Shown here one piece after another: positions 9,383 through 29,314 of a stretch of DNA of 30,460 nt; the first letter of the stretch is position 1; each line of letters begins with the position of its first letter. Made by a program: the position numbers and the translations under genes. Source of the DNA: a virus; the IMG/VR virus record IMGVR_UViG_3300008120_000439, positions 1 through 30,460 of that record, one strand, 5' to 3'. Below the pieces are notes generated by a model. The model searched no databases. It saw nothing but the letters and a program-made list of their open reading frames with translations, and was not told the DNA's origin.

Positions 9383-10282
9383 ATGAGCATCACGGGCACT
9401 GGCGATATTGGCGTAGTCTGGCGAGCCATCGCCGACATCGCCGTCGCCAACGAGTCAAAAGCCGACGCGGACGGCTTCGGGCCGCCCAGTTTTGCCGCGT
9501 CCGGCGTCTGGGGCTACGTGGGCGATGGGGCCATCACCACGGCCCCGGCGTCGCTGAGCGCAACCGGCAGCCTCAACTTTGAGGCCGTCGGCACCTTCAC
9601 GACCGCCGCGTCCAGCCTAAGTGGCACGGGCGACGTGCCCTTTATTGGCACGGGCACCTACGTCACGCCTCCGGCCATTCTGGTCGGTGTGGGCGAGGAA
9701 ACCTACGCGGGCTACGGCCAGTTCACCACGGTGCCTGCCAGCCTGTCTGGGGCCGGGCTGACCTCCATCTTTGGCGTCGGCAATTTCGTCTGTGCGCCCG
9801 CGACCTTGGCGGGCACCGCCAAACAGAACAAGCCCAAGGGTGGCCATTCCCGCAAGCAGATGCGGGAATACGAAGAGTTCGTCCGCATGGGCGAGGTCAT
9901 CAAGGGGGAGCTCTTGGGCCATCTGGCGCCCAACGAACTCCAGTCCCCCGAGCACGCCCCGCAACCCCTGCACCTGACGGTCGAGACACGCGAGCCGGAC
10001 GTCCAGCCCGACGTGCCGCCCATGCCGCTCCGGGTGGCGCCGCTGCCCCCCATGACCCTGCCCGAGGTGCGCGTCAAGCCCACCATCGTGGGCACGGGCA
10101 CCTTCACCTCGGATGGCAGCAACCTCGGGGGGCTGGTCCGCAACGCCGTGGTCAACGGCTACAGCGACCTGCTGACCGACCCGCCCACCCTCAAGGGCCG
10201 AGGCACCACCGACATTCACTACGCCCAGCGCAGGCAGGAAGACGCCCTCATCGAGCAGTTCCTCTTGCAACTGGTGGCCTAG
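9383..10282 (+). CDS. Beta-repeat virion protein (299 aa)
   Basis: Residues about 47-145 carry five degenerate repeats of about 21-23 residues with the pattern G-x-G-x-F/Y/I-x-T-x-P-A-x-L-x-G-x-G (GTFTTAASSLSGTG, GQFTTVPASLSGAG, GVGNFVCAPATLAGT); a further one is near residue 235 (GTGTFTSDGSNLGG). Such repeats usually build beta-solenoid or beta-sandwich fibres. A basic and acidic helical segment (SRKQMREYEEFVRMGEVIKG) lies between, then a Pro-rich stretch. It sits between the tail fibre and the capsid genes, so it is likely a fibre, spike or decoration protein. It starts 3 nt after the previous gene without a clear ribosome site, suggesting coupling. Confidence 0.75.
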   Translation: MSITGTGDIGVVWRAIADIAVANESKADADGFGPPSFAASGVWGYVGDGAITTAPASLSATGSLNFEAVGTFTTAASSLSGTGDVPFIGTGTYVTPPAILVGVGEETYAGYGQFTTVPASLSGAGLTSIFGVGNFVCAPATLAGTAKQNKPKGGHSRKQMREYEEFVRMGEVIKGELLGHLAPNELQSPEHAPQPLHLTVETREPDVQPDVPPMPLRVAPLPPMTLPEVRVKPTIVGTGTFTSDGSNLGGLVRNAVVNGYSDLLTDPPTLKGRGTTDIHYAQRRQEDALIEQFLLQLVA

Positions 10283-10294
10283 GTGTGCTAGACT
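10265..10294 (+). promoter_or_regulatory. Sigma70-like promoter with extended -10
   Basis: TTGCAA (10265-10270), 18-bp spacer, TAGACT (10289-10294) preceded by TG at 10286-10287. Transcription would start near 10301, just before the GGAGG of the 80-aa gene. The 11-mer TGTGCTAGACT (10284-10294) recurs exactly at 29304-29314 in the other promoter of this type. The -35 box overlaps the end of the preceding gene. Confidence 0.65.
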
Positions 10295-10312: not shown

Positions 10313-10555
10313 ATGCAGCCCGAACAGTATTGGAAGGCGAAGGCGCTGGAACTGGAACGCGCCATTCTGGAACAGAACATCAACCAGGCCGTCAAGGCGT
10401 TTGAGGACCGGCTCGTCCCGGCGTTTGCCGAGGCGGGGCTGGACCCCAAGCAGCGCTACACGTTCGACGACGAGGCTCTGGCAGCCACCCCGGTCCAGGC
10501 CCAGGCTGAGGCACCGAAGCCGCAGCTGGTGGTTGACAATTCGCCCGAAGTGTAG
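10313..10555 (+). CDS. Small helical protein upstream of scaffold (80 aa)
   Basis: A good ribosome site (GGAGG, 10303-10307, 5-nt spacer) and its own promoter precede ATG 10313. Residues 1-45 are a charged amphipathic helix (KALELERAILEQNINQAVKA), and the C-terminus is Ala/Pro/Gln-rich (ATPVQAQAEAPKPQLVVDN). The second promoter for the capsid genes (10533-10561) lies in its last codons. No homologue is recognised. From position and helix content it may be a head-assembly accessory factor. Confidence 0.75.
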   Translation: MQPEQYWKAKALELERAILEQNINQAVKAFEDRLVPAFAEAGLDPKQRYTFDDEALAATPVQAQAEAPKPQLVVDNSPEV

Positions 10556-10561
10556 TATACT
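10533..10561 (+). promoter_or_regulatory. Consensus sigma70 promoter for scaffold and capsid genes
   Basis: TTGACA (10533-10538), exactly 17-bp spacer, TATACT (10556-10561). The -35 is perfect and the -10 is 5 of 6. It ends 24 nt before the structured segment (10584-10706) and 159 nt before the likely scaffold start. The same boxes and spacing recur at 17709-17737. It overlaps the 3' end of the 80-aa gene. Confidence 0.75.
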
Positions 10562-10583
10562 TCACTCCTACCCCCCGTCCGCC

Positions 10584-10706
10584 CTGGATGGGGTTCACGC
10601 CCTCAGGTGTCCTACCCGCCTGGGGGCGCCCGCCTGTCGGTAGGACCTCCCACCACGGACCGCTCATCCAGTGGGAGTTCCGAGGACGCCCCTTCGTGGC
10701 ACTCGG
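10584..10706 (+). ncRNA. Structured 5' leader RNA candidate upstream of scaffold
   Basis: Nested complementary segments: outer stem 10584-10592 with 10663-10671 (CTGGATGGG/CTCATCCAG, one G-U pair); inner stem 10609-10616 with 10639-10646 (GTCCTACC/GGTAGGAC, perfect); a small hairpin 10617-10620 with 10625-10628; and a third stem-loop 10680-10684 with 10702-10706 (CCGAG/CTCGG) enclosing GCC/GGC at 10688-10690 and 10698-10700. It starts about 16 nt downstream of the expected transcription start of a consensus promoter and ends 13 nt before the scaffold ATG. It could control translation or stability of the capsid mRNA. A caveat: the scaffold frame stays open through it from ATG 10588. Confidence 0.55.
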
Positions 10707-10719
10707 CCAGAGCATCCTG

Positions 10720-11727
10720 ATGTCCGATCAGATCATCGACGCACCTGACTCTCTCCAGCCCGTCACCGTGGAAAGTGCCCTCTCGGGGGCGTTTGACAAG
10801 GCGATGGCCATGGATTTCGGCGAGACGCCCTCTGCCGAAACGTCCCCCGCTTTGGCGGCCCCTTCTGCGGAAGCACCGGCCCCCAGCGCGAGTCTGAGTC
10901 CTGCCGAGGCGAAAGTCCTCGACCTGCCAGACGATGGGATGGTGAAAGTCAAAGTTGACGGGAAAGAGCAACTCCTTCCGGTCCAAGAGTTTAAGGCGGG
11001 CATTTCGCGGGAAGCGCACTACACCCAGCGAATGCAACAGTTGGCCGAGCAGAAGCGCCAAGCGGAAGACCTGCTGGCCAGCCAGTATGCCCACATCCAG
11101 CAGGAGGCGCAAGCCGTCCAGCTGGCCCAACAGCAACTGGCTGCCTATCTCCAGCAGCAACAGGCCGCCCAGGCGCCGAATCCCGGCACCACGCCACAAG
11201 CTCCAGACCTTGGGGAACTCGCCACCGTGGGCGATGTGCAAGCCTCATTGCAACGCGCGTTGGCCGACATGGCCCAGCAGCAGCACAGCCGAGAGCAGCA
11301 ACTCATTGCTGCGATCAGCCACGCCAGCCAGCAGGTCCAGGAACAGGCCGCCCTCCAGCGGGACAGCGTGTCGTATACCAACGGCCTTCAGTCGGTGCTC
11401 AAGCGGCCCGAATATGAAGTGCTGACCAAGGTGCTCCCGTATGCCGAGGAGTCCATCCGCTACCAAGTGGCGGCCATGGACCCCCCGACCATCCAGGACG
11501 CCATTGCGTATACGGAACAAGTCGCCAAGGAGTGGACCGACAAGCTGCGCAGTGAGGTCATCGACAGTCAGAAGCGGCAACAGGTCGCGCAGGCCCGTGC
11601 CAGACTTGAACCGCCCGCAGGGTCACCGCCGAGTCCCTCCCTTGGCGCCCGTCAGAACTTCTTCAAGAAGGACGGGAAGCTGGATTGGGACGCCCTCAAC
11701 GCGAGGGCAGCGGCCCTGATGGGCTAG
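10720..11727 (+). CDS. Capsid scaffolding protein (335 aa)
   Basis: Directly precedes the major capsid gene and has scaffold composition: an acidic, Ala/Pro-rich N-terminus (SAEAPAPSASLSPAEAKVLD), long Gln/Ala/Glu coiled-coil helices (residues about 100-170 and 185-230, e.g. KRQAEDLLASQYAHIQQEA), and a short basic C-terminal segment (RQNFFKKDGKLDWDALNARA) like those that contact the capsid protein. It would direct prohead assembly and then leave. ATG 10720 is chosen because the sequence after it fits a scaffold N-terminus, but its ribosome site is weak. The frame is open upstream to ATG 10588, so a 44-residue extension through the structured leader cannot be excluded. Confidence 0.82.
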   Translation: MSDQIIDAPDSLQPVTVESALSGAFDKAMAMDFGETPSAETSPALAAPSAEAPAPSASLSPAEAKVLDLPDDGMVKVKVDGKEQLLPVQEFKAGISREAHYTQRMQQLAEQKRQAEDLLASQYAHIQQEAQAVQLAQQQLAAYLQQQQAAQAPNPGTTPQAPDLGELATVGDVQASLQRALADMAQQQHSREQQLIAAISHASQQVQEQAALQRDSVSYTNGLQSVLKRPEYEVLTKVLPYAEESIRYQVAAMDPPTIQDAIAYTEQVAKEWTDKLRSEVIDSQKRQQVAQARARLEPPAGSPPSPSLGARQNFFKKDGKLDWDALNARAAALMG

Positions 11728-11756: not shown

Positions 11757-12998
11757 ATGGCTTTTGATTACACTGCTGCCGGAAACATCCTCAAGGAAGT
11801 CTACCTTCCGGCCCTCCAGGAACTGCTGAACAACGCCACCCCGCTGCTGGCGGCGATGGAAAAGGAAGTCACCCCGGTCGAGGGTGGCAACTTCGTCATT
11901 GCCCTGCACACGGGCCGCAACTCGGCGGCGGGTATTGCCCGCGCGGAGGGCGGCACGCTGCCGACCGCCGGACAGCAGAGCTACAAGCGCGCCATCGTGC
12001 CCGTGAAGCAGCTCTACTCGCGCATCAACGTCAGCGGCAAGGCCATTGCGGCCACCCGCTCGAACAAGGGTGCCTTCCTGAAGGCCCTTGAGTCGGAAAT
12101 GAAGTATGTCATGGTGGACACCAAGCGCCAGATCAACCGTCAGCTGAACGGCGACGGCACGGGCGCCCTGGCCTACTGGACCGGTGCGGACGACACCTCG
12201 CCCGCGAACGTCGATGACAGCTTCGGCAACGGCACGACCTACCTGCCCTCGGGCGCCACCACGCTGGACCTCATTGATGCCAGCGACAACAGCACGGCGC
12301 TCGGCACGAACATTGTCGTGACCCGTGGCACCGTGGGCGCGACCACGACGTCGGTCAGCTGGACGGGCACCGTCACGGGCTCGGCGGCGGGCGACTACCT
12401 GGTCTACCCCGGCACCATCGGCAAGGAAATGGTCGGCATCAAGGCCGTCATTTCGGCCAGCGACCCGGCCATCCTCGGCGCGGGCGGCCTCCACGGCCTG
12501 CCGGTGGCCTCAAACCCCGACTGGGCCGCGTTCGTGCTCGGCTCGGATTCGGCGAAGCAGGACCTCTCGTTCCCGCTCATCCAGCAGCTGCTCTCGCGCA
12601 TCGTGAGCGAGTCGGCGGTGGACGAGTCGGACATCAAGATGTTCTACTGCCACCCGGCGCTGCGCGACACCTACGTCAAGCTGTGCCAGGACGAGCGCGT
12701 CTTCTACAACGTGATGAAGCTCGACGGCGGCTGGGAAGCGGTGACCTACAACGGCAAGCCCATTGTGGCCGACGTGCAGGCCCGCCGCAACGCCCTGTTC
12801 GCCATCACGCCCTCCAGCCTGTCGCTCATGCAGATGGCGCCGCTGGACTTCATGGACAAGGACGGCTCCATGTTCTACCGCATCTCGGGCGGTGACGTGG
12901 ACGCCTACGGTGCCACCGCGTTCGTCTACCAGGAGCTGGGCTGCAAGGCTCGGAACCAGAACGGCGTGATTGTGGGCCTGAACGAGGTGTGGGTCTAG
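11757..12998 (+). CDS. Major capsid protein (HK97-fold type)
   Basis: A 413-aa protein with the strongest ribosome site of the head block (GAAAGGAG, 11742-11749) right after the scaffold gene. The sequence has the character of HK97-like capsid proteins: an N-terminal helical arm (ILKEVYLPALQELLNNATPL), an E-loop-like region (VEGGNFVIALHTGRNSAAGI), a conserved-looking AITRSNKG-like segment (AIAATRSNKGAFLKALESEM, the spine helix), then a beta-rich, Gly/Thr-rich insert (about residues 150-225) and the peripheral domain ending in SGGDVDAYGATAFVYQELGC. No protease gene was seen nearby, so maturation by cleavage is not indicated. A strong hairpin follows the gene. Confidence 0.9.
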   Translation: MAFDYTAAGNILKEVYLPALQELLNNATPLLAAMEKEVTPVEGGNFVIALHTGRNSAAGIARAEGGTLPTAGQQSYKRAIVPVKQLYSRINVSGKAIAATRSNKGAFLKALESEMKYVMVDTKRQINRQLNGDGTGALAYWTGADDTSPANVDDSFGNGTTYLPSGATTLDLIDASDNSTALGTNIVVTRGTVGATTTSVSWTGTVTGSAAGDYLVYPGTIGKEMVGIKAVISASDPAILGAGGLHGLPVASNPDWAAFVLGSDSAKQDLSFPLIQQLLSRIVSESAVDESDIKMFYCHPALRDTYVKLCQDERVFYNVMKLDGGWEAVTYNGKPIVADVQARRNALFAITPSSLSLMQMAPLDFMDKDGSMFYRISGGDVDAYGATAFVYQELGCKARNQNGVIVGLNEVWV

Positions 12999-13011
12999 GT
13001 CACTAGGCTCT

Positions 13012-13048
13012 GGGGGACGGGGCAATCCCGTCCCGTCCCCCACCTTTT
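13012..13048 (+). terminator. Terminator-like hairpin after major capsid gene
   Basis: A perfect 10-bp stem, GGGGGACGGG (13012-13021) with CCCGTCCCCC (13032-13041), 10-nt loop, followed by ACCTTTT. The T-run is short and preceded by CC, so it is probably a partial terminator or an mRNA-stabilising 3' end that lets capsid transcripts dominate. The next gene begins 22 nt later without an obvious promoter, which implies read-through. Confidence 0.7.
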
Positions 13049-15349: not shown

Positions 15350-17547
15350 TGGAAGACCTCTACCAGGAGCAGACCAATTGGAGTGGGGGCACGCAGCCCG
15401 GCACGCCCGTGGACCGCGTCCCGGAGACGGCGTTTGCCAGCGGCATCAACACGGCCTTTCGTGAAATCGGTTCGGGCACGGCGCTTATCGGGTGCCGTCC
15501 CGGGCTGACCGCCATCAACACGACGGCGCTCGGGGGTGGCAGCGGCGACCCCAACCTGGACTTTGCCCGCCTCTATACCTACGACACCGGCAGCACCTAC
15601 AGCAATTTTATGGCGGTCGTCGTGCGGAACGGCAAGCTCTACTACAAGAATCCCGACAACAGCTTTACCAGTGAAGTGACAATCCCGGCGGGGTGGAGCT
15701 ACGGCAGCAGCACGCAGTGCTTTACAGCGGGCGACTTTGCCATTGACGGCACGGTCTTTAACAACCGCCTCTTCCTCATCAAGCAGTCCGCTACCCCCGA
15801 GCTGCGGTCCTTCACGGGCACCAGCACCGCCCCCACCGTGGCCGTGCCTTGGGGCCTGTCGCCTATTGGCACCGTTGCTGTCACCGCTGTGGCCGGGGGC
15901 GCCAGCCTGCCGACGGGCGAAACCTACGACGTCGCCATCACCAGCTACCACAGCACCACGGGGGCCGAGTCCAGTCTGTCTGCGAGCATTGCGGTCACGC
16001 CGACAGCGGGGCAGCGTATCCAGGTTACCATTACCCCCACGGCAGCCGAGAGTGCCCTCTACACAAACTGGCGCGTCTACCTGCGGCGCCGCAGCACACA
16101 GTCTCGGCTCTATCTGGTCAGTTCACTGGGGACGGGGGGCAACATTGCCATTGGCACCACCACCGTCTACGTGGACCTGACTGCCGCCCAAATCACGGCG
16201 CTGACGACCGCCGCCCCCTCCACGGTCGAGAATAATCCCCCGCCTGCGTCGGCCAAATTTGTCTGCACGTATGGGCGCCGGGTGCTGGTGGCCGACGAGC
16301 GCAATGTCTACTGGTCCAAGCAGGACAAGGCGGACAACTTCCCGCCCCTGAACTACGAGCCCATCGAGACGGGCGAGGGCGACACCATTACGGGCATCTA
16401 CCCCTTCAGCGACGAAGTGGCGCTGGTCTTTACCACCACGGCCATTTGGGGCATCTTCGGTAACGACCCGCAGACGTGGACCTTTAAGGCCATTGACCAC
16501 ACCATTGGCTGCCTGTCCCACCTGAGCATCATCGAGTTCAACGGCCAACTGGGCTGGTGGTCGGACGCCTATGGTCCGGTCGTCTACGACGGCACCACAA
16601 TCGTCAAGCTGGGCGAGCGCGAGTTGGGACGCTCCTCCTATATCGAGGAGTTGAACCTGAGCCGGATCAGCCGGTGCTGGGCCGGGCACGACCCCAAATA
16701 CAGCCGCGTAATCTGGGCGACGCCCGCCACGGGCACGACGCGGAACAGCCGGATGTTTGTCTACAACTATCAGGTCGGCAAATTTGAATCCGAGCAGTGG
16801 GACCCCATGCCCGCCGCGTGCCTGACGATGGCCTATCACAGCGACGGGTCCATTAAGCTGTTTCTGGGTAGTGACCGGGGCCACGTCTTCTACTTCGACG
16901 AGACGGTGCGCAACGACGGTGTGCCCAGCGGCACGGTGACGGGCACTTTTGTGGGGGCAGGCGCCCTGAGCACCATTAGTGGCACCGGCTTCTACGCGAC
17001 CAACGACGGCCTGAAGTGGCGCTGGGTCCTGATTGTGGACAGTGACGCACGCCCAGTCACCAATGTCGAGATTGCCAGCAATACCAGCACGACGCTGACC
17101 CTGGCCACTTCGCCCACTATGACGACGGGCAACGTCTACATCTACTACATCGGCAGCCCCGACCTGCGCTTGGGCACCCGGTCCTACGACATGGGGCTCA
17201 CCTTCTTCCGCAAGCGGTTTGACCGCCTGTATGTCCATGCCAAGGCCAGCACGGCTGGGGCGACCAACATCTGGTTGACGACGCAAATCAACTTTGCCAC
17301 GGCGGCCACGGCAACGGGCCAGAGCCTGGGCCTCGGGGGCGCCAAGTGGGGACCCAGCAACGTCAGTGTGGGCGTCTGGAATACCAGCCAGTGGGTGGGC
17401 GACCAGAACGTCAAGAAGCGGTTTGCCCTCTTTACGCCGGGCCAGAACCTGCAATTGAACCTCCTTCAGTCCCGCACCAATCAAGACGTTATCATCTCGG
17501 CAGTGGGGCTCCTGGCCGGGGTGCAGTCGGAGCGCTACTTTGGCTGA
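15349..17547 (+). CDS. Tail hub / DNA-stabilization (tail-tubular-B-like) protein (732 aa)
   Basis: Translationally coupled to the connector (TGATG). The protein is large, beta-rich and without membrane segments, with propeller-like, Trp/Tyr-rich strands: VYWSKQDKADNFPPLNYEP, TTTAIWGIFGNDPQTWTFKA, LGWWSDAYGPVVYDGTTIVK. This is the pattern of podovirus tail-tubular B and DNA-stabilization proteins that form the nozzle beneath the connector. A fibronectin-like stretch near residues 185-245 (TGETYDVAITSYHSTTGAES; YTNWRVYLRRRS) is probably an inserted domain. It should seal DNA in the head and bind tail appendages. The next gene starts within its last codons. Confidence 0.78.
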   Translation: MEDLYQEQTNWSGGTQPGTPVDRVPETAFASGINTAFREIGSGTALIGCRPGLTAINTTALGGGSGDPNLDFARLYTYDTGSTYSNFMAVVVRNGKLYYKNPDNSFTSEVTIPAGWSYGSSTQCFTAGDFAIDGTVFNNRLFLIKQSATPELRSFTGTSTAPTVAVPWGLSPIGTVAVTAVAGGASLPTGETYDVAITSYHSTTGAESSLSASIAVTPTAGQRIQVTITPTAAESALYTNWRVYLRRRSTQSRLYLVSSLGTGGNIAIGTTTVYVDLTAAQITALTTAAPSTVENNPPPASAKFVCTYGRRVLVADERNVYWSKQDKADNFPPLNYEPIETGEGDTITGIYPFSDEVALVFTTTAIWGIFGNDPQTWTFKAIDHTIGCLSHLSIIEFNGQLGWWSDAYGPVVYDGTTIVKLGERELGRSSYIEELNLSRISRCWAGHDPKYSRVIWATPATGTTRNSRMFVYNYQVGKFESEQWDPMPAACLTMAYHSDGSIKLFLGSDRGHVFYFDETVRNDGVPSGTVTGTFVGAGALSTISGTGFYATNDGLKWRWVLIVDSDARPVTNVEIASNTSTTLTLATSPTMTTGNVYIYYIGSPDLRLGTRSYDMGLTFFRKRFDRLYVHAKASTAGATNIWLTTQINFATAATATGQSLGLGGAKWGPSNVSVGVWNTSQWVGDQNVKKRFALFTPGQNLQLNLLQSRTNQDVIISAVGLLAGVQSERYFG

Positions 17548-17872
17548 AATTACCGGGCTGAGTAAAACCGCGCAGGACGCGGATTTCCTGCGGCAGGTGC
17601 CGTTTCGGCAATACGAAAAGGTGGACGTGACCTTTGCCGTGGCCGACCAAGACACCCCGGTGCCCTACACCCGGCTGACCCCCACGGACCTCAATGCCGT
17701 GAGATTTCTTGACATTGGGGACAAAAGCGTGTATACTCCTTCGACAGGGGCCGCAACAGCAGCGCACGTCTACCGGACCCCGGTGCCCTGGGAAACGCCC
17801 CAACTGATGTATCTGCGGTCGAGCCAAGCGGGCTACTCGACCACCCTTCTCCTCTTTGTGGAGCGTGGCTAA
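17540..17872 (+). CDS. Small tail-associated protein, TTG start (110 aa)
   Basis: Starts at TTG 17540, overlapping the previous stop by 8 nt, with GGAG at 17529-17532. It ends in a TAATG junction with the next gene. The sequence is beta-rich and hydrophilic (QVPFRQYEKVDVTFAVADQD; LRSSQAGYSTTLLLFVERG) with no signal or membrane helix. A strong promoter (17709-17737) lies within its coding sequence. No family is recognised; it is likely a small tail or neck component that links the hub protein to the fibre-like proteins encoded downstream. Confidence 0.72.
   Translation: MAEITGLSKTAQDADFLRQVPFRQYEKVDVTFAVADQDTPVPYTRLTPTDLNAVRFLDIGDKSVYTPSTGAATAAHVYRTPVPWETPQLMYLRSSQAGYSTTLLLFVERG
17709..17737 (+). 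promoter_or_regulatory. Consensus sigma70 promoter inside a coding sequence
   Basis: TTGACA (17709-17714), exact 17-bp spacer, TATACT (17732-17737), the same boxes and spacing as at 10533-10561. It would start transcription near 17744, serving the fibre-like genes from 17872 onward and perhaps the lysis cassette. Such a match is unlikely by chance in GC-rich coding DNA. Confidence 0.7.
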
Positions 17873-28641: not shown

Positions 28642-29297
28642 TGCCGAAAGACTCGTCTGCGACGCCCACACCGAAACGGACACCCGCCAGCTCTTTCTTG
28701 GACATGCTGGCCCAGGGGGCGGGGTACGCCATGCGCAAGGTAGGCCTGCCCGCGCAGATGCGCTTCCTGCCCCAGGCACTCCTGGGGCAGCGGACGTTTA
28801 CGGCAGCCGACTTGCTGCCGAACGAACTGGAAGACCTGCAGACTGCGGTAGAAAATTCCGCTGCCCGCCTCCGCACAGGTAAGGACAAGCGAGCGGGCGT
28901 GCAGTATTACGACTTTCCCCAGGGGTCGAACAATCTACGCACGATAAAAGCGCTGCTCCCGAGCAATGCGCTGCCGCTCTCCCTGGGGCGCGCCAACTAC
29001 CGCATCGCCCCGGAGACGGGCGAGACCGAGGTGTTTGACACGTATGACTTTCTGAATAGCGCCCGGAAGGCGGACATCGAGAAATATCAACAGGCCCTGG
29101 CCGAAGGGGGACGGCTGGGCCAGTTCAAGGAATTTCTGGCGCAGGCACAGGACTATGCCCCGCAGCGCTTTCTGACGACGGGGCTGCCGCAAGAGCTGGG
29201 GGAACTGTTCCTGCTCGAAGGGCCCGAGGTGGCCATTCGCCTGCCACGCCCAGTGACGCCGCCCAGCCGGGTCCGACGCGCGGTCTTGGCAAATTAG
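28641..29297 (+). CDS. Conserved phage structural protein (218 aa)
   Basis: Starts at ATG 28641, overlapping the TGA of the 888-aa gene. N-terminal residues 1-20 are Ser/Thr/Pro-rich; residues about 20-60 are amphipathic (LDMLAQGAGYAMRKVGLPAQ; LPQALLGQRTFTAADLLPNE). The middle has a compact alpha/beta segment (AGVQYYDFPQGSNNLRTIKA; NYRIAPETGETEVFDTYDFL) and a helical end (IEKYQQALAEGGRLGQFKEF). The C-terminus is Pro/Arg-rich. It closes the ejection operon just before a promoter-bearing gap. I recognise no family; a minor virion component is the best guess. Confidence 0.72.
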   Translation: MPKDSSATPTPKRTPASSFLDMLAQGAGYAMRKVGLPAQMRFLPQALLGQRTFTAADLLPNELEDLQTAVENSAARLRTGKDKRAGVQYYDFPQGSNNLRTIKALLPSNALPLSLGRANYRIAPETGETEVFDTYDFLNSARKADIEKYQQALAEGGRLGQFKEFLAQAQDYAPQRFLTTGLPQELGELFLLEGPEVAIRLPRPVTPPSRVRRAVLAN

Positions 29298-29314
29298 GCA
29301 AAATGTGCTAGACT
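29286..29314 (+). promoter_or_regulatory. Sigma70-like promoter giving a leaderless or near-leaderless transcript
   Basis: TTGGCA (29286-29291, 5 of 6 consensus), exact 17-bp spacer, TAGACT (29309-29314) with TG at 29306-29307. Predicted transcription start is near 29320-29321, the ATG of the next gene, so the mRNA would have almost no leader. Shares the 11-mer TGTGCTAGACT with the promoter at 10284-10294. It overlaps the end of the previous gene. Confidence 0.7.

Follow-up and report, generated by a model that had tools for sequence, protein, structure and literature searches.

How does a phage scaffold gene without a Shine-Dalgarno sequence begin translation, and what is the segment that separates its start codon from a consensus promoter? 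Scaffold protein has to be produced in proper proportion to capsid protein. The question is raised by a viral stretch of 30,460 nt (IMG/VR record IMGVR_UViG_3300008120_000439, positions 1–30,460; here called the window), in which most genes, including the capsid gene (anti-Shine-Dalgarno duplex −7.9 kcal/mol), carry a Shine-Dalgarno sequence, whereas the scaffold start at ATG 10720 has none (duplex only −2.7 kcal/mol). We consider it reasonably probable that the 5' leader of the scaffold–capsid transcript is a conserved, non-coding RNA of ~150 nt with two pseudoknots, which acts in cis on scaffold translation.

The segment upstream of the scaffold start codon

The sigma-70-type promoter described in the initial annotation is exact in sequence and position (Table 1). 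A promoter search returned this one site, against a mean of 0.3 in shuffled sequence, and no second site with 11/12 matches in the first 15.5 kb of the window. The promoter occupies the same position, with diverged spacers, in L001, L003–L010, L012, L019, L020, L043, L044, L050, L052, L054 and L069. In the L011-type and L018-type lineages the promoter is not directly upstream of the leader and another gene precedes the RNA. The initial annotation had cautioned that the scaffold frame is open from ATG 10588; this frame meets stops in L006 and L007, and by protein homology the conserved scaffold N terminus begins at 10720. Because the frame from 10588 is broken in relatives, the segment is non-coding.

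Relatives were found among IMG/VR phages by capsid and portal protein searches and by DNA patterns. They comprise about 13 distinct leader lineages with scaffold proteins about 40–100% identical, namely window/L001/L003/L004/L005; L006 (with the partial L089); L007; L009 (with L008 and L010); L043; L044; L050; L054; L012/L019; the L011 group; L018/L081; L020; and L069–L071.

Table 1. Positions of the leader elements and adjoining genes in the window
Feature	Position	Strand	Sequence or description	Basis
Sigma-70-type promoter	10533..10561	+	−35 TTGACA (10533–10538), 17-nt spacer, −10 TATACT (10556–10561); 11/12 matches	Consensus search; position kept in relatives
SL1	10573..10593	+	Hairpin CCCCGTCC-gccct-GGATGGGG	MFE; compensatory changes in L007
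SLB	10598..10628	+	12-bp hairpin (10598–10609/10617–10628), 7-nt loop	Pairing in window clade
PK1	10610..10645	+	SLB loop TCCTACC (10610–10616) with GGTAGGA (10639–10645)	Compensation in L007; recurrence
SL2	10647..10677	+	CTCCCAC, CAC, GGA, CCGCTCA, TCC, A, GTGGGAG	Covariation
SL3	10680..10706	+	CCGAG, GAC, GCC, CCTTCGT, GGC, A, CTCGG	Covariation
PK2	10662..10713	+	SL2 loop GCTC (10662–10665) with GAGC (10710–10713)	Covariation
Scaffold protein gene	10720..11727	+	ATG 10720; head scaffolding protein	PHROG 3927, E 5e-6
Major capsid protein gene	11757..12998	+	AAAGGAG before ATG	PHROG 14242, E 5e-64

Fold and covariation of the leader

The elements follow one another in the order promoter, SL1, SLB (whose loop pairs downstream to form PK1), SL2, SL3, PK2 strand, 5–7 nt and ATG. 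In SL2 the outer stem is separated from a 3-bp inner stem by a 3x1 internal loop (5' CAC, 3' A), and the inner stem is capped by a loop of ~7 nt. SL3, which the initial annotation had correctly placed as a third stem-loop, repeats this plan with NAC/A as its 3x1 internal loop. In PK2, the SL2 loop pairs with a strand that in the window ends 6 nt before the ATG, the position of a Shine-Dalgarno sequence. The paired strands are GCTC/GAGC in the window, L006 and L007, GCAC/GTGC in L009, L043, L044, L050 and L054, GCGC/GCGC in L012, GACG/CGTC in L018, GCAG/CTGC in L020, ACGC/GCGT in L069 and CGCG/CGCG in L011. Every lineage has 5, 6 or 7 nt between the end of the PK2 strand and the ATG, while the SL2–SL3 linker ranges from 2 to 18 nt. 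A leader defined by SL2 with CAC/A, SL3 with NAC/A and PK2 at 5–7 nt from the scaffold ATG occurs across 13 lineages, with deviations in internal-loop letters or sizes in L009, L011, L018, L020, L044 and L069. By this comparison, SL2 and PK2 are the best-conserved parts of the leader.

Folding energy, a check that the initial annotation had proposed, does favour the window segment (MFE −71.2 kcal/mol against −62.3 ± 3.9 for shuffled sequence, with 5 of 200 shuffles as good), but a z of −2.3 is modest and energy alone is insufficient to settle the structure. Covariation in relatives, also proposed there, gives good support for a structured mRNA leader upstream of the scaffold gene. When 14 leaders are aligned by MAFFT without regard to structure, 82.7% of cells are paired, compared with 65.0 ± 1.6 with shuffled partners and 27–44% when partners are slid by 1–3 columns; two-sided changes occur at 15/22 pairs and in 50 cells against 16 expected, the structure having been read from the same sequences as were used for these pair counts. 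A covariance model built from SL2 and SL3 only recovered all full-length leaders (28–84 bits). On the resulting alignment PK2, which lies outside the model, has 92.9% of cells paired, with AU, UA, CG and GC pairs and a covariation of 0.508 against 0.120 when shuffled. The 4-bp match between loop and tail is present in 10/10 representative lineages, whereas 2000 shuffles of the tail gave it in 1.75 lineages on average and in 6 at most.

Since kinship between sequences can mislead pair counts, a tree-aware null was used, in which columns evolved independently along the inferred tree in 1000 simulations. This null reached the observed values in 0/1000 simulations each for the SL2 outer stem, PK2 and the SL3 outer stem, in 3/1000 for the SL2 inner stem and in 9/1000 for the SL3 inner stem. 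Among 2871 column pairs in the tree-aware test the best is a PK2 pair, with an E of its own of only 0.15 because lineages are few; the covariation evidence is thus cumulative and does not come from single pairs. RNAalifold on alignment A4 recovered only SL2. The SL2+SL3 model gave no match in L047 and L074, and the scaffold leader is without the structure in two relatives, L047/L048 and L074. Nor was there a convincing match in the GenBank phages Jasmine and ctLwi270, distant capsid relatives at about 28% identity. Among 289 bacterial genomes of one phylum, the leader was found only in the L050-bearing genome; two further weak matches, L126 and L127, look like chance, as does a match in L123 (16.6 bits).

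In the upstream half of the leader, pairing across SL1, SLB and PK1 combined reaches 96.3% within the window clade, and six changes affect both sides of a pair. For SL1, 96.9% of cells are paired and compensatory changes are found in L007; a hairpin at the same place is also present in the L009/L043/L044/L050/L054 group. In that group the 5' hairpin GCTGACGTTTCAGC is nearly invariant within an otherwise freely varying upstream leader. SLB is paired in 100% of cells, with changes on both sides at two pairs. The initial annotation had nested an 8-bp stem (10609–10616/10639–10646) inside a 9-bp outer stem (10584–10592/10663–10671). The complementarity of the 8 bp is exact, but the 12-bp SLB hairpin holds the 5' strand as its loop, so that the stem forms an H-type pseudoknot, PK1, instead of being nested. 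The outer stem is complementary at 9/9 positions in the window but at 8/9 in L006 and only 5/9 in L007, and it also excludes the conserved SL1 and SL2; it was therefore rejected. The fold first proposed thus retains its 8 bp and its third stem, loses its outer stem and had missed SL2 and PK2.

PK1 shows a C-G to U-A compensatory change in L007, and its sequence is almost wholly different between lineages (CCTACC/GGTAGG, CCTATC/GATAGG, CCCACACAC/GTGTGTGGG, CATCATC/GATGATG, GACAGT/ACTGTC); the L054 version, GAATTC/GAATTC, was assigned by eye. Against dinucleotide shuffles the H-type pseudoknot has p<=0.02 in 10/13 leaders, with a Fisher value of 7e-12 that includes near relatives, which are not independent. 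In this search the best topology of L054 was a competing one and those of L012 and L011 were non-significant. An alternative partner of GGTAGG (10639) is a 5' copy of CCTACC (10567–10572), which is preferred by MFE. This pairing was judged less likely because in L007 the loop copy co-changes (CCTATC/GATAGG) and the 5' copy is CCTGCC. SLB was also considered as a terminator or attenuator and set aside; a 3' T run follows it in L050, L054, L044 and L009, but neither the window clade nor L043 has one.

Start-site geometry and probable control of scaffold translation

Comparison of the lineages shows the fold, its conservation, the fixed 5–7 nt spacing and the missing Shine-Dalgarno sequence. Scaffold starts in leader-bearing phages offer a weak anti-Shine-Dalgarno duplex (−0.3 to −4.7 kcal/mol), the one exception being L044, where the last SL3 strand resembles a Shine-Dalgarno sequence (−11.5), a doubtful case. 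Capsid starts in the relatives mostly have AGGAG or GGAG. In the leader-less L047 and L074, which are two relatives only, the scaffold gene does have a Shine-Dalgarno sequence (GAGG or AGGAG; −7.0 and −9.4). A missing Shine-Dalgarno sequence is not by itself proof, as the capsid gene of L020 also lacks one. The RNA lies directly before the scaffold gene in all leader lineages, including L011 and L018, where no promoter is adjacent; it therefore appears tied to the start codon and not to the transcript end. Since it is so placed, and since the scaffold Shine-Dalgarno sequence is absent with the leader and present without it, PK2 probably gates initiation. The suggestion in the initial annotation that the element could set scaffold translation fits the start-codon geometry and the missing Shine-Dalgarno sequence, and we infer that the RNA regulates translation.

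The same geometry bears on two other roles. An mRNA stability or processing element, guarding the scaffold–capsid transcript from decay with no direct part in initiation, would suit the location at the predicted transcript 5' end in most lineages and the long GC stem of SLB followed by a T run in several of them, but would not account for the PK2 covariation, for the constant spacing from the ATG or for the absent Shine-Dalgarno sequence; moreover, in L011 and L018 the RNA follows another gene and not a promoter, and we regard such a role as improbable. A trans-acting or packaged RNA for head assembly or DNA packaging, like the phi29 pRNA, could be imagined from the elaborate fold beside the capsid genes, and a packaging-linked RNA had been offered as an option. 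Nothing specific speaks for it: in all lineages the RNA directly adjoins one and the same start codon, as a cis leader would, rather than standing alone, ends in pairing with the start region, is followed by no conserved terminator and has no Rfam family match, phi29 packaging RNA included. We give this option very little credence.

In the favoured cis-acting leader, PK1, formed by the SLB loop and its downstream strand, stands in front of SL2, and the SL2 loop reaches over SL3 to pair with nucleotides −10 to −7 relative to the scaffold ATG. The folded RNA would thereby cover the 30S binding place, where no Shine-Dalgarno sequence competes, and opening or locking of PK2 would set how much scaffold is translated, the capsid gene retaining a Shine-Dalgarno sequence of its own. 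Effector identity and direction of control are a matter of guesswork. SL2 and SL3, which share the NAC/A internal loop, would be the most plausible docking sites, the repeated loops being, at a guess, a repeated docking motif, and the effector would most likely be a capsid-assembly protein, the scaffold itself or another, acting in an autoregulatory loop. Such a protein is favoured because of the autoregulation of the P22 scaffold, the pseudoknot in the T4 gene 32 leader and the repeated NAC/A loops. More tentatively, and with doubt outweighing confidence, the leader may represent a novel class of RNA, with a pseudoknot helix taking the place of the Shine-Dalgarno helix at a phage start codon and with scaffold translation coupled to the status of head assembly by binding of scaffold or capsid protein to the NAC/A hairpins.

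Alternatively, the RNA could be a constitutive activator without an effector, an internal-entry-like element that recruits or places the 30S subunit without a Shine-Dalgarno sequence, the PK2 helix lying at the usual place of the helix between Shine-Dalgarno and anti-Shine-Dalgarno. The spacing fixed at 5–7 nt, the presence of a Shine-Dalgarno sequence only where the RNA is absent and the requirement for scaffold in quantity would all be consistent with this. Yet a compact fold beside the AUG usually hinders initiation, and we know of no bacterial precedent for a pseudoknot-based element of this kind replacing a Shine-Dalgarno sequence, so that we think activation unlikely. An RNA so conserved and so sharply delimited at the start codon of the scaffold gene makes the question of scaffold autoregulation testable by single compensatory mutants, and adds a structured RNA family to the tailed phages.

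Known RNAs and neighbouring signals

Rfam 15 has no family at or above the gathering threshold in the window, and at E<=10 the leaders gave chance matches only (L31-Actinobacteria, 15.1/35 bits; radC, 12.8/40; SNORA77, 13.1/42), with none for L020. Keyword searches of the literature on phage leader RNAs and capsid genes found no description, which, given their limited coverage, is weak evidence of novelty. Judged on these searches, the leader RNA appears to be new and to belong to no known family.

In architecture the leader resembles the preQ1-II riboswitch, which has a similar HLout-like order, with a loop pairing just before the AUG at the Shine-Dalgarno position, a second hairpin in between and other stems upstream (PMC11625349). 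On this model a small molecule or ion would stabilise PK2 and shut the start site. Against it, the preQ1-II consensus (RF01054) has no match in the window or the tested relatives, none of the PK2 strands GAGC, GTGC, GCGC, CGTC, CTGC, GCGT and CGCG is a Shine-Dalgarno sequence, and the leader has an extra upstream pseudoknot. Few unpaired bases beyond NAC/A are conserved, with no long invariant pocket, the target is a viral structural gene for virion assembly and not metabolism, and no Rfam family matches. A riboswitch therefore seems to us a poor candidate.

Pseudoknots at the initiation region that are bound by a protein of the same message are found in E. coli rpsO (S15) and the alpha operon (S4). 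The leader has no sequence relation to either, as judged by Rfam, the likeness being a pseudoknot at the initiation region; the rpsO translational pseudoknot is described in PMC3014915. As in the gene 32 leaders of T4, T2 and RB69, an H-type pseudoknot lies in a phage mRNA leader upstream of one gene, here as PK1 and PK2; the T4 pseudoknot is bound by its own gene product for translational autocontrol, and a 2010 review of T4 considered it possibly the only viral pseudoknot in translation autoregulation (PMC3014915). That pseudoknot, ~67 nt upstream, is the nucleation point for binding over an A+U-rich ribosome site (PMC3014915), whereas the window leader has two pseudoknots, one of them directly at the start codon, precedes a scaffold gene and has a putative effector.

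We know of no RNA element that has been demonstrated to underlie autoregulation of the P22 scaffold gene. That autoregulation itself was reported by Wyckoff and Casjens in 1985, as cited in PMC5744158; the phages are not closely related, and the likeness, as far as that citation goes, is at the level of scaffold regulation and not of an RNA element. Both the P22 case and the gene 32 pseudoknot of T4 serve as functional precedents rather than relatives.

Downstream, a 13-bp hairpin followed by CCTTTTC (13011–13042) separates the capsid gene from the gene after it, and a strong hairpin directly 3' of the capsid gene is also present in most relatives; scaffold and capsid may for this reason form their own transcription unit. 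In L012 and L020, promoter-like sequences (TTGACA..., TTGACT... with TATA-like boxes) lie just 3' of the capsid gene. Another TTGACA-17-TATACT is found at 17709–17737, within gene 17540–17872 and upstream of gene 17872, and may be a chance occurrence or an internal promoter. The −10 region of the leader promoter (10547–10563) lies within an imperfect palindrome, GAAGTGTAGTATACTTC, a possible operator that is not conserved in distant relatives. An identical string, GTGCTAGACT, forms the −10 region of two further promoter-like sites, which may be a second promoter class of the phage: one at 10265–10294 (TTGCAA-18-TAGACT), before gene 10313 and kept in L001 and L003–L006, and one at 29286–29314 (TTGGCA-17-TAGACT), which ends 6 nt before ATG 29321.
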